From contig JANYDL010000036.1 in assembly GCA_025363635.1 (NCBI GenBank), positions 1-41,068 of the forward strand: a stretch of 41,068 bases of DNA, read 5' to 3'. The position numbers and the translations under genes are program-made. The stretch comes from Actinomycetes bacterium. Lineage in GTDB: Bacteria; Actinomycetota; Actinomycetes; Nanopelagicales; Nanopelagicaceae. Each line of letters starts with the position of its first letter. Within the stretch, counting starts at the first letter, position 1. Below, piece by piece: positions 2,818 through 12,433 of this stretch. The notes beneath the pieces are model-generated. The model was not told where the DNA came from. It made no database searches and saw nothing but the letters and a program-made list of their open reading frames with translations.

Positions 2818-4373
2818 TACGCCACCACCCGAAGGATTTCTTCTACGGAAGTTAAACCCATCTTTACTTTTTCCCAACCATCTTCGCGGAGAGTAATCAT
2901 TCCTTGCTGTCGAGCCATTCTCCCGATCTCTGCACTAGACGAGCGCGCGACAGTAAGTCTTTCAATCTCCTCGGTCACCATCATGACTTCATGAATTGCA
3001 ATTCGACCGCGGTATCCAGTATTGGAGCAATTGGCGCAACCTGCAGGTTGGTAAATGATCGAAAGTCTTTGGTCTGCATCAAAACTAAAGCGAAGATTCT
3101 CAAAATATTCAGCATCATGTTCGACAGCTTTTTTGCAATGATTACACAGTCGACGCGCTAATCGTTGTGCGACTACGCAGTCCAACGCCGACCCAACAAG
3201 AAAGGGCTCAATATCCATTTCAGTCAAACGAGTAATTGCACTTGGCGCATCGTTCGTATGCAAAGTTGAAAGGACCAAGTGACCAGTAAGAGACGCTTCA
3301 ACTGCAATCTGTGCAGTTTCGTGATCCCGAATTTCTCCGATTAACACAACATCCGGATCGCTTCGCAAAATGGACCTCAAAGCGCTGGCAAAAGTAAGTC
3401 CCGCTTTTGGATTGACCTGAACTTGATTGATACCTTTCATGCGATATTCCACAGGATCTTCAACCGTGATTACATTAATTTCGGGACGAGCAACCGCACC
3501 CAAAGTCGTATACAGGGTGGTTGATTTTCCAGATCCAGTGGGACCGGTAATCAAAATCATTCCGTATGGTTTTGAATAGGAGGATTTGTACGCCTCGAAA
3601 TTTCTGTCGAGAAGTGCAAGATCGCGAATATCCAAATTCGAACTTGGGTTATCCAGAATTCGCATTACGATTTTTTCGCCCCAGACGGTGGGAAGTGTCG
3701 CTACGCGAAGATCGATTTTGCGACCGCCATAATTAACCGACATGCGGCCGTCCTGCGGTTTCCGGCGTTCAGCTATGTCAATATCACTCATAATCTTGAG
3801 TCGAGAGATGACTCCACTTTGGATGCTCTTTGGAGCGCTTTGCATTTCATGGAGAACGCCATCAATCCGGTATCGAACTCGAACTGCGTCCTCGGCTGGC
3901 TCGATATGAATATCAGAGGCGTGATCCTGAATCGCCTGACTTACTAAAAGGTTGACAAAACGGACAATTGGGGCATCATCTTCAAGCCCCTCAGTGAAGG
4001 TGAAATCTTGCACCTCAACTGGAGCGCTTTTTTCTAAGAGCTCGGAGGTTAGATCACTTAATTCATCATCTGCTCGAAGAAAACGATCTATCGCTGCCAA
4101 CAAATCTGCTCTTTCCACCCCCACGGCTTCGATTGACATTCTGGCGGCGCTTCGTACATCATCAATCGCGACAACATTGGCTGGATCAGCCATTGCCACG
4201 ATGAGTCGTCCATTATGCAAGCCAATTGGTAGTAATTCATGGCGGCGACAAATGGCCGGTGAAACTAAAGAAACCGCGCCTCGATCAATTGGGTAATCGA
4301 CAAGTTCAACGAAGGGTAGGCCTACACCTTCGGCGAGCGCTCGCGCCGCGAGAACCCTTGAGTTAGCAACCAC
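2817..4373 (-). CDS. pilB: Pilus extension ATPase PilB (short N-terminus)
   Basis: Hexameric ATPase driving pilus assembly (GspE/PilB family). From the chosen GTG the protein has 518 residues: the C-terminal half of an MshEN/T2SSE_N domain (about 1-100), an N2 domain (about 135-245), Walker A GPTGSGKST at 276-284, an Asp box (VEDPVEYR), Walker B DPDVVLIGEIRD, His box GHLVLSTLHT, and a CxxC...CxxC zinc element near residues 410-455 typical of PilB/GspE. The GTG is supported by a perfect AGGAGG 6 nt upstream; a TTG six codons earlier would sit across that motif. Family members usually carry about 30-40 more residues before the GLPFVEL motif, so the N-terminal domain looks truncated (see findings). 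First gene of the pilB-pilT-pilC operon. Confidence 0.92.
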   Translation of the reverse strand: MVANSRVLAARALAEGVGLPFVELVDYPIDRGAVSLVSPAICRRHELLPIGLHNGRLIVAMADPANVVAIDDVRSAARMSIEAVGVERADLLAAIDRFLRADDELSDLTSELLEKSAPVEVQDFTFTEGLEDDAPIVRFVNLLVSQAIQDHASDIHIEPAEDAVRVRYRIDGVLHEMQSAPKSIQSGVISRLKIMSDIDIAERRKPQDGRMSVNYGGRKIDLRVATLPTVWGEKIVMRILDNPSSNLDIRDLALLDRNFEAYKSSYSKPYGMILITGPTGSGKSTTLYTTLGAVARPEINVITVEDPVEYRMKGINQVQVNPKAGLTFASALRSILRSDPDVVLIGEIRDHETAQIAVEASLTGHLVLSTLHTNDAPSAITRLTEMDIEPFLVGSALDCVVAQRLARRLCNHCKKAVEHDAEYFENLRFSFDADQRLSIIYQPAGCANCSNTGYRGRIAIHEVMMVTEEIERLTVARSSSAEIGRMARQQGMITLREDGWEKVKMGLTSVEEILRVVA

Positions 4374-9054: not shown

Positions 9055-11502
9055 TTAAGCCTTTATTCGCGCATTCGTCGGATCGAAAATTGGTTCGCTG
9101 GAAACTACACCTGTGATCCACTGACCGAAAAATTCCACGTCAACTTCCGTACCAACCTGCGCATCTTCTACGGGTATAAATGCGTACGCAATTGCTTTAT
9201 TGATTGAGAAGCCCTGCCCTCCACTCTTTACACGGCCGATGATCTTTCCATCTCGCGATATTGGTTCGTTACCTAGCGGGACCCATCGAATGTCATCGAA
9301 AAGAATGGGTACAAGTGATCGACTATGTTTCGTTTTAGCAATGAGATATGCGTCGCGGCCAAAAAAGGATTCCTTCTTCATCGAGACAGCAAAATCTAGC
9401 CCTGCTTCGTATGGATTTGTTTCGGTAGAGATCTCAACTCCCCATGCTCTGTACCCTTTCTCAAGGCGAAGTGATTCAATGGCTCGATACCCACATACCT
9501 CCAATCCAAATTCTTTTCCTGCTTGAATAATCTCCAACCACAACTCCTCGCCACTTTCTACCGGAACATAGAGTTCCCATCCAAGTTCTCCAACATACGT
9601 GATTCGAGTGGCGCGAATTGGAACTCCGCTCAAGACAATTTCACGAGAATGCATAAACGGAAAGGATTTTTGACTCATGTCGTATTGAGTCAATTGTTGC
9701 AAAATTTCACGGGAGCGCGGTCCCCAAATGCCAAAACACGCAAGTGAGGAAGAGATGTCCACGATTGTCACCTCAAATTCCTTTTCACGAGCTATCTTTT
9801 CTAGCCAATTCATATCATGCACGGCAAATGCAGTGCCCGTAACAATCAAGAATTCCGATTCTCCGATTTGTGTAACTGTGTAATCTGATTCAATTCCCGC
9901 ACGAGAATTTAAGGCTTGTGTATATACAGTACGACCGACTCCACGAACCACATCGTTAGCACATACATAATTGAGGAATTCAGCGCTCTCTCTCCCACGA
10001 ATCTGAATCTTAGAAAAGCTAGATTCATCGAAAAGTCCCGCGCGCTCCCTCGTTGCTAGATGCTCGGCTCTCACCGCACTTGACCAATGTTTTGCTGCCC
10101 AACCATGGGGAGGCAGAATTGAACCATCTTCATGTGACTTGTAGTAATTGACCCGCTCCCAGCTAGCCTTCTCACCAAAAATCGCTCCCGCGCTCTCGTG
10201 CCAGTCGAAGATAGGTGATTTTCTACGTGGGCGTGCACTTTGGCGCTCTTCACCTGGATAGTGAATGTCGTAATACGCCTCATAATTCTCGGTAACTCTT
10301 TCTAAAGTGAAACGTGGAGACTCATATGAATTTCCGAACCGTCGGATATCCATGTGCCATAAATCCATAGTTGGTTCACCTGCTACAACCCATTCAGCAA
10401 CTACCTTGCCGATTCCTCCCGCACCCGCTATTCCATGTGCACAGAATCCTGCAGCAACATAAAAACCTCCTACAGAAGTTTCTCCTAAACAGAACTCGTT
10501 GTCCGGCGTAAATCCTTCTGGGCCATTTATGAAATTTTTAATTCCAACCTCGCCCATCTTCGGTACCCTCTTCTGTGAATTTACAGCTATTTCTTCGAAA
10601 CGATCCCACTCTTCCGGAAGTAACTTTCCGTTGAAATCGGATGGAATTGAATCTACATGGTCGTAATCTGCGGTCCAGGCTCGCGATTGACGCTCATATC
10701 CACCCATGAGTAACCCGCCAACCTCTTGGCGGAAGTAGATTAGGAGATCAGGGTCGCGCAGTGAGGGAAGTAAATTCTCTCCCACAGACAAAAAGTTCTC
10801 GGTGATGAGGTATTGGTGGCTCATAGGAATAATCGGAATTCTCACATCGACGAGGCGACCAATCTCTGGAGCAAACATGCCACCGCAGTTGATGACAACC
10901 TCGCACTCAATTAAGCCCTTGTCGGTCTGCACATGGGTAACACGTCCTTTAGCAGTAGTGATACCAAGCACACGTGTGTGAGTAAAAATATCTACTCCGC
11001 CACGTCGCGCGCCCGCCGCCAGCGCTTGCGCCAATTGCGAAGGATCGACCTGTCCATCAGATGCCATATAGCAAGCACCAACCACACCGTCCAAATCCAT
11101 GAGTGGAAACAACTCTTGAGCTTGTCGCGGTGAAATTTCCTGGAGGTCCAGGCCAAAAGTTTTTGCCCAACCAATCTGTCGGCGTATCTCTTCCATGCGT
11201 TCTGGCGTGGAAGCCAACTTGATGCTCCCACATTCCTTCCAACTTGGAGGAGTATCACTTTTCTCAAGTTTTCGATACAGATCAACCGAGTGCATGTTCA
11301 TTTTGGTGAGCGTTGGATCTGCACGGAGTTGACCAACTAAACCGGCAGAGTGAAATGTCGAACCGCTCGTTAAATCGCTTCGGTCGAGCAAAATCACATC
11401 TTTTTCGCCTAATTCAGCGAGGTGGTATGCAACCGAAGTTCCTCCGACTCCGCCACCAATCACGATGATTTTTGCGCGCTCTGGAAGTGATGACGTAGAC
11501 AT
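9055..11502 (-). CDS. Dimethylglycine/sarcosine dehydrogenase-like flavoprotein with GcvT domain
   Basis: Two-module enzyme expected to oxidatively demethylate an N-methylated amine (dimethylglycine, sarcosine or similar) and transfer the methyl carbon to tetrahydrofolate. 815 residues, normal for the DMGDH/SARDH family. The N-terminal DAO/FAD domain (about 10-375) starts with the dinucleotide fold IIVIGGGVGGTSVAYHL. GSTFHSAG contains His51, the position that carries covalent FAD in this family. FAO_M linker follows (about 375-430), then GcvT aminomethyltransferase (about 435-720, with SLRLEKGYRAWGVEIS) and GcvT C-terminal (about 725-810). Exact substrate is not determinable from sequence. 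The start has no Shine-Dalgarno; TACATT ends 6 nt upstream, consistent with a leaderless mRNA. It is divergent from a choline-kinase-like gene, which suggests choline/betaine-derived methylamine use. Confidence 0.85.
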   Translation of the reverse strand: MSTSSLPERAKIIVIGGGVGGTSVAYHLAELGEKDVILLDRSDLTSGSTFHSAGLVGQLRADPTLTKMNMHSVDLYRKLEKSDTPPSWKECGSIKLASTPERMEEIRRQIGWAKTFGLDLQEISPRQAQELFPLMDLDGVVGACYMASDGQVDPSQLAQALAAGARRGGVDIFTHTRVLGITTAKGRVTHVQTDKGLIECEVVINCGGMFAPEIGRLVDVRIPIIPMSHQYLITENFLSVGENLLPSLRDPDLLIYFRQEVGGLLMGGYERQSRAWTADYDHVDSIPSDFNGKLLPEEWDRFEEIAVNSQKRVPKMGEVGIKNFINGPEGFTPDNEFCLGETSVGGFYVAAGFCAHGIAGAGGIGKVVAEWVVAGEPTMDLWHMDIRRFGNSYESPRFTLERVTENYEAYYDIHYPGEERQSARPRRKSPIFDWHESAGAIFGEKASWERVNYYKSHEDGSILPPHGWAAKHWSSAVRAEHLATRERAGLFDESSFSKIQIRGRESAEFLNYVCANDVVRGVGRTVYTQALNSRAGIESDYTVTQIGESEFLIVTGTAFAVHDMNWLEKIAREKEFEVTIVDISSSLACFGIWGPRSREILQQLTQYDMSQKSFPFMHSREIVLSGVPIRATRITYVGELGWELYVPVESGEELWLEIIQAGKEFGLEVCGYRAIESLRLEKGYRAWGVEISTETNPYEAGLDFAVSMKKESFFGRDAYLIAKTKHSRSLVPILFDDIRWVPLGNEPISRDGKIIGRVKSGGQGFSINKAIAYAFIPVEDAQVGTEVDVEFFGQWITGVVSSEPIFDPTNARIKA

Positions 11503-11508
11503 AGAGGA

Positions 11509-11514
11509 AATGTA
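11509..11514 (-). promoter_or_regulatory. -10 element (TACATT) for leaderless flavoprotein gene
   Basis: On the minus strand TACATT is followed by 6 nt and then the ATG at 11502. It overlaps by 2 bp the plus-strand -10 of the divergent kinase gene, so the two promoters probably cannot be open at the same time. Confidence 0.45.
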
Positions 11515-11518
11515 TCCT
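11513..11518 (+). promoter_or_regulatory. -10 element (TATCCT) for leaderless choline-kinase-like gene
   Basis: TATCCT is followed by 6 nt and then an in-frame GTG at 11525. A weak -35 (ATGACG, 4 of 6 to TTGACA) lies 17 nt upstream. This placement decides the kinase start at 11525, downstream of in-frame ATGs at 11465 and 11510. Confidence 0.45.
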
Positions 11519-11524
11519 GAACTG

Positions 11525-12433
11525 GTGGAAGAATCTCTAGAGACAATGTATGGATTTCTTCTTGATCAAGTAGAGGTACTGCGAGATCGCACTATTCTTC
11601 GTGAACTCTCAGGTGGGCTAACCAATCGCAATCTGCTTATAGAAAATGACCGCGGAAAGTTCGTAGCCCGGATCTCTAGCAACAGTTCATCCCTCCTAAT
11701 GATCGATCGTGAGGCTGAATATCAAAATTCGCTTTTGGCGGCTAAGGCGGGCATCGCTGCACCTGTTATCGATTATCTTCCTGGAAAAGGGCTGCTTGCG
11801 ATTGGCTACCTTGAGGGCCGAACTTTCTCAGCCTCCGACGTGGAAAGTAACCTCTCGCGGATTGCGATGAGTTGTCGGCAACTTCATGGAGCGGACACGT
11901 TCGTTCGGGATTTCAACATGTTCGATATTCAAAAGAATTACTTGACGATAGTTGAAGATCGTGGCTTTCGATTACCAAGTAATTACTATGATTTCGCCGA
12001 CGCACTTACTCTCACTAGAAAAGCGTTAGCGGTCCTGGATGAAGGCACGGTACCTTGCAATAATGACTTACTTCCTGGCAATTTTATAGATAATGGTTCT
12101 ACCATTTACATTATTGATTATGAGTATTCAGGAAATAACGATCCGTGCTTTGAGCTCGGCAATATCTGGGCTGAATCCTTTTTAGATCTTGATTGCCTTG
12201 AGGAATTGGTCACTGCCTACTATGGGGCCTATCGCCCCGAAAAAATAGCGCGTGCATGGTTGTTGGCACTCGTTGGCAAATATGGTTGGACTCTCTGGGC
12301 CTCCATCCAAGACTCAGTTTCACATTTGGATTTTGATTTTTGGTCATGGGGAATGGCTAAATACGATCTAGCGCAATCAGAATTCACCAGCTCTTACTTT
12401 ACGAAGGCTTTGCAAATAGCAACAGAAAAATAA
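11525..12433 (+). CDS. Choline/ethanolamine kinase-like phosphotransferase
   Basis: Aminoglycoside-phosphotransferase-fold kinase of the choline/ethanolamine kinase (LicA-like) group, which would transfer the gamma-phosphate of ATP to choline or another small alcohol. 302 residues from the GTG. The N-lobe has the LSGGLTNRNLL nucleotide-binding loop. A Brenner-type catalytic loop reads CNNDLLPGNFI (Asp as base, Asn for metal). The metal-binding Asp lies in IIDYEYSGNNDPCFELGN, a close match to the choline-kinase motif. The usual His of the catalytic loop is Cys-Asn here. It is divergent from the dimethylglycine dehydrogenase-like gene with 22 bp between predicted transcription starts. It ends against the rplI operon terminator. 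Alternative starts are ATG at 11510 and 11546. Confidence 0.78.
   Translation: MEESLETMYGFLLDQVEVLRDRTILRELSGGLTNRNLLIENDRGKFVARISSNSSSLLMIDREAEYQNSLLAAKAGIAAPVIDYLPGKGLLAIGYLEGRTFSASDVESNLSRIAMSCRQLHGADTFVRDFNMFDIQKNYLTIVEDRGFRLPSNYYDFADALTLTRKALAVLDEGTVPCNNDLLPGNFIDNGSTIYIIDYEYSGNNDPCFELGNIWAESFLDLDCLEELVTAYYGAYRPEKIARAWLLALVGKYGWTLWASIQDSVSHLDFDFWSWGMAKYDLAQSEFTSSYFTKALQIATEK

Follow-up and report, generated by a model that had tools for sequence, protein, structure and literature searches.

The kinase and flavoprotein genes

The window, the whole stretch of 41,068 nucleotides that was analysed, comes from a genome of 1.85 Mb in 104 contigs. The close named relatives of this genome are records assembled from metagenomes, which carry the labels Actinobacteria/Actinomycetes, Candidatus Planktophila, and Nanopelagicaceae. 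Within the window, two divergently oriented genes lie back to back with a very short region between their start codons (Table 1). The minus strand gene encodes a flavoprotein of the dimethylglycine dehydrogenase/oxidase type, with the Pfam domains DAO, FAO_M, GCV_T, and GCV_T_C, which make up an FAD oxidoreductase and folate-binding parts; among solved structures, it is most closely matched by dimethylglycine dehydrogenase (4pab) and dimethylglycine oxidase (1pj5). The plus strand gene encodes a kinase of the choline/ethanolamine kinase-APH superfamily, with matches to the Pfam families Choline_kinase and APH and a top NCBIfam match, GntI, that is under its cut-off.

The kinase and the orthologous flavoprotein are both found in the same 15 of 21 genomes of the genus, which bears out the suggestion of an earlier sequence-only reading that the two genes are linked. 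One record carrying the actinobacterial pair (L027, RFXN01000001.1) is titled Candidatus Fonsibacter lacus, an alphaproteobacterial name, and is probably a misassigned bin.

Table 1. Positions of the genes and candidate promoter elements in the window.
Feature	Position	Strand	Details
Flavoprotein, dimethylglycine dehydrogenase/oxidase type	9055..11502	-	815 aa; ATG start at 11502
Candidate weak -35 hexamer ATGACG	11490..11495	+	Spacer 17; within the flavoprotein coding region
Conserved core AAATGTATCCT, putatively bidirectional	11508..11518		11 bp; exact in 68/82 family loci
Putative -10 element TACATT of the flavoprotein gene	11509..11514	-	6 bases from ATG
Putative -10 element TATCCT of the kinase gene	11513..11518	+	6 bases from GTG
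Kinase, choline/ethanolamine kinase-APH superfamily	11525..12433	+	GTG at 11525; 302 codons then stop

The 22 bp between the genes

The sequence from 11500 to 11527 is CAT AGAGGA AATGTATCCT GAACTG GTG, in which 22 bp separate the ATG of the flavoprotein (11502, minus strand) from the GTG of the kinase (11525, plus strand). Both of the hexamers listed in Table 1 are of the form TANNNT and they overlap reciprocally on opposite strands as ANNNTANNNT at 11509-11518, with the TA at 11513-11514 in common. The first T of each is exactly 12 bp upstream of its start codon. The coordinates, start codons, 22 bp gap, hexamers, and 2 bp overlap given in the sequence-only reading are all correct to the base.

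It has been reported that over 20% of the genes of Actinobacteria are leaderless and that TANNNT is found about 12 bp upstream of such genes (PMC3160421). Here the same signal at the same distance is present at both genes; in the available text of that source leaderless genes are described singly, whereas in the window each strand carries one such signal and the two overlap. A 960 kb sample of a congener (G013), in which 841 genes were roughly called, has TANNNT ahead of an in-frame ATG or GTG near gene starts 117 times at 6 bases and 50 times at 7, against 10-26 times at each of the other distances tested, which indicates that leaderless starts are normal in the genus. Leaderless-like starts on both sides are present in 12 of 119 adjacent divergent pairs from this sample, one of which has starts 24 bp apart and a common TA. 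The proposal that both of the coding genes of the pair are leaderless is one that the sequence supports.

TANNNT is a poor motif, and the chance of finding ANNNTANNNT at that place in a random 22 bp spacer is about 1 in 256. The 28 bp pattern is not enriched in the genome from which the window comes, with 3 places against 1 for a reversed control, nor across the 21 genus genomes, with 53 against 64 for the reversed control, which has AT for TA and is an imperfect match. The observation in a single genome is therefore weak alone, and the case rests on the relatives. Conservation among these relatives makes it strong.

Conservation in the family

The kinase is present in 83 of the 296 genomes of the family, from 11 of its 17 genera; a search at the level of the order covered the same 296 genomes. 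The spacer is readable in 82 of the 83. The exception, G214, was left out because its kinase is a mere fragment at the end of a contig, and L015, an additional fragmentary kinase from G017 lacking the gene start, was dropped. In all 82 readable loci the arrangement CAY-N6/7-ANNNTANNNT-N6-RTG is kept, including the reciprocal overlap, with a start-to-start distance of 23 in 73 loci and 24 in 9. This geometry persists although the identity of the kinase to that of the window drops to 43%. The back-to-back, overlapping -10 elements proposed from the window are thus borne out by the sequences of its relatives.

The core is AAATGTATCCT in 68 loci, AACTGTATCCT in 11, TAATGTATCCT in 2, and AAAGGTACCAT in 1. 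The minus hexamer is TACATT in 70, TACAGT in 11, and TACCTT in 1, and the plus hexamer is TATCCT in 81 and TACCAT in 1. In the locus with the most diverged core, L160, both hexamers are altered (TACCTT and TACCAT), with the two TANNNT sequences, the common TA, and the 6-base distances all retained. It is improbable that a single direction acts as promoter, with the other TANNNT a by-product of symmetry and its gene expressed otherwise. The plus hexamer is the stiffer of the two, and near-symmetry is described as intrinsic to -10 elements (PMC10268837), but every one of the minus variants keeps TANNNT with 6-7 bases between it and the CAY start (82/82), and the only other upstream room for a promoter is inside the neighbouring gene.

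Across the 79 distinct sequences, the 11 columns of the core carry 1.45-2.00 bits each and the other 11 columns of the spacer 0.02-0.89 bits. The 11 most conserved of the 22 columns are exactly the contiguous core, for which the chance is 12 in 705,432 if columns are exchangeable. Since neither coding sequence covers the spacer, with starts at CAY and RTG, this conservation reflects selection on the DNA itself.

Two single-direction leaderless promoters from the window were traced through the genus as controls. Ahead of a trxB-like gene, TATGGT is present in 15 of 20, another TANNNT in 2, and none at the tested distance in 3, while ahead of a penicillin-binding protein gene there is TAACCT in 17/21 and TAGCCT in 3/21 (the 21 include one partial record). 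These controls are also well conserved, so that conservation of orthologous -10 hexamers is normal in the genus; the site between the kinase and the flavoprotein, which shows no variation among its 15 genus loci, is somewhat stiffer than either.

The start codon of the kinase

The codon at 11525 is GTG in 57 of the family loci and ATG in 25, with the TG invariant in all 82. There is also an in-frame ATG at 11510, inside the core, with AGAGG 2 bases ahead of it in the window, and the equivalent codon is ATG in 70/82 loci. If the kinase started there, using AGAGG as a Shine-Dalgarno sequence, the core would be kept for encoding Met-Tyr-Pro, yet this is the least credible of the explanations weighed here. 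The equivalent codon is CTG or AGG in 12 loci and is followed in 6 others by an in-frame stop before the RTG, the bases ahead of the core lack the conservation expected of a Shine-Dalgarno sequence (0.07-0.35 bits), and the competing RTG has its invariant TG. A start at 11510 was rejected as unusable in 18/82 loci; the GTG at 11525, chosen as the start from the window alone, holds for the same reason.

Search for further promoter elements and regulatory sites

Matches of at least 4/6 to TTGACA at the spacing of the candidate -35 hexamer (17 bp) are found in 44 of the 79 distinct relatives, compared with 37 at a spacing of 11 and 29 at a spacing of 26. This is weak and only suggestive of a -35 element. 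A scan of 11300-11700 for the σ70 consensus found no promoter, and no regulator site was seen at the gene pair.

The uniformity of the core goes beyond what TANNNT demands, which would fit an operator for an unknown regulator in place of a -10 pair. This is very improbable, given that the position of the core is fixed relative to both start codons and that L160 alters its letters yet keeps the -10 positions. In addition, the exact 11-mer occurs just 20 times in the 21 genus genomes, with 15 of these at this one pair, and there is thus no sign of a regulon. An operator was rejected on the grounds that the 11-mer is not reused across the 21 genomes.

Other gene pairs with the same design

All 40 of the other places in the genus with the pattern (53 minus the 13 at the kinase/flavoprotein pair) were examined, and both frames are open for at least 70 codons at 10 of these. 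One of these pairs consists of a metZ-like gene and a gene for an ABC ATPase, names which were read from the translations, and was traced to 22 loci from the 21 genomes (L345-L364, with two fragments without a gene start excluded). All 20 readable loci have CAY-N6/7-ANNNTANNNT-N6-ATG, with a core that is mostly ACCTTACACT, and the hexamer on the metZ side is TACACT without exception. The geometry is the same as that of the kinase/flavoprotein pair, but the core is another and the start on the N6 side is ATG. The metZ-like and ABC ATPase genes have no evident common pathway. Two conserved pairs with unrelated products therefore have the same architecture.

In the genome of the window itself, the same 22 bp design also separates a gene resembling a cation/H+ antiporter from one for an ABC ATPase (L173:1501-1528, which is G000:C9:31758-31785). 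This antiporter is found in just 1 of the 21 genus genomes.

Eight genomes of the genus (loci L305, L313, L320, L322, L327, L333, L335, L341) have a near-palindromic core of the AAGGTAACCTT type ahead of a proC-like gene. The proC-like gene and the unknown gene facing it were not counted as a double-leaderless pair, as the frame of the unknown gene shuts after 6 codons in 5/8 and is open in 3/8.

The gene pair outside the family

The sequence-only reading looked to relatives with the same gene pair for any unrelated spacer. There is none within the family, where all 82 loci keep the site. In 36 divergent loci outside the family, mostly from Nonomuraea, the spacer is both different and longer, and the claim therefore holds only for this family; within what was searched, the compact shared -10 is family-specific. 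In a loose motif test, leaderless-like signals are present on the kinase side of 29 and the flavoprotein side of 34 of these 36 loci. The longer spacer has the palindrome GGTCTAGACC in 31/36, for example in Nonomuraea L038, L044, and L054, where it is upstream of about position 3001. This palindrome resembles a GntR/DasR-type operator, which suggests that expression in those loci is regulated.

Comparison with known promoters

Bidirectional promoters in which a pseudo-symmetrical -10 region serves both strands are known, are most often tied to mRNA synthesis, and commonly have transcription starts 18, 10, or 23 bp apart (Warman et al. 2026, PMC12825309). The site described here is alike in having a -10 that could serve both strands, in the distance of 23 bp, and in that mRNA could be made both ways. 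The distances in this class are 7-25 bp, with the 23 bp here being predicted from the start codons. It would differ in that each putative transcription start falls on a start codon, which would make the entire intergenic region promoter.

Closely juxtaposed divergent promoters have been termed a common feature in Mycobacterium tuberculosis, where Rv1129c/Rv1130 is a divergent leaderless pair (Cortes et al. 2013, PMC3898074). These are likewise two divergent coding genes for which both mRNAs are leaderless, although there the starts were mapped experimentally and here they are predicted. The sequence-only reading had singled out the coding and leaderless nature of both products as what distinguishes this site, but this is not a clear distinction, with mRNA usual at bidirectional promoters (PMC12825309) and the mycobacterial pair already described (PMC3898074). 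In the literature covered, no account was found of a promoter with a shared -10 from which leaderless mRNAs are made in both directions. Overlapping divergent promoters with leaderless transcripts are known from Streptomyces (ermE, aph). The 22 bp site, with its putative shared -10 and predicted double leaderless starts kept family-wide, is a clean case of a promoter type that is already known.

Joint expression or a switch

The spacer is probably a bidirectional promoter for the housekeeping sigma factor, which would give rise to two leaderless mRNAs and to steady joint expression. With one TANNNT per strand overlapping at a common TA, RNA polymerase would be able to bind this one site facing either way. 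The RNA would start at the first base of whichever start codon is downstream, the two being 23 bp apart. Both directions would be transcribed in the cell using the housekeeping sigma factor, and the two enzymes of one pathway would be steadily expressed together, with the balance between the directions set by the sequence. Against this stand the lack of enrichment over the reversed control, the empty σ70 scan, the weak -35, and the good conservation of the two single-direction controls.

It had been proposed from the window that the site is a mutually exclusive switch, in which polymerase in one direction silences the other and either the flavoprotein or the kinase is expressed. The hexamers do overlap, and in PMC12825309 steric constraints are said to bar simultaneous opposing binding at bidirectional promoters, with strong activation of one direction being able to repress the other in E. 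coli. In the same paper, however, basal activity at all five of the bidirectional promoters tested in E. coli was too low for polymerase competition. Neither a strong -35, a consensus promoter, nor a regulator site was seen at this pair, and the kinase and the flavoprotein are retained together in the same genomes (15/21), as would befit genes used jointly. The design also recurs between the metZ-like and ABC ATPase genes, which share no evident pathway. A switch is thus unlikely. Joint expression appears to be favoured by the linked enzymes, the lack of a regulator site in view, and the published weakness of bidirectional promoters at the basal level, while polymerase competition could set a ratio if the promoter were strong or activated.

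Significance

It may be, although this is speculative, that in some divergent pairs of this family the whole intergenic region has shrunk to a single -10 with the transcription starts at the start codons, fixing the ratio of expression of two genes without a regulator, and that such a site would be under double purifying selection for this reason. Each hexamer would then provide upstream contacts to the opposite promoter, for instance through a G at -14, which is a guess. A G at this position fits both L160 promoters as well as the minus promoter between the kinase and the flavoprotein, whereas the metZ-like pair does not fit.

The 79 distinct sequences around one shared -10 are a natural experiment on the evolution of bidirectional promoters, in which the variants tolerated by selection are visible and for which a second pair of like design is available for comparison. 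For a lineage that has received little study, two transcription starts are predicted with single-base precision, and the site allows testing of whether the ratio at which two linked enzymes are expressed is locked by a shared -10. Should both directions be active, this would be near the smallest possible promoter region for two genes, which would fit genomes of 1-2 Mb.
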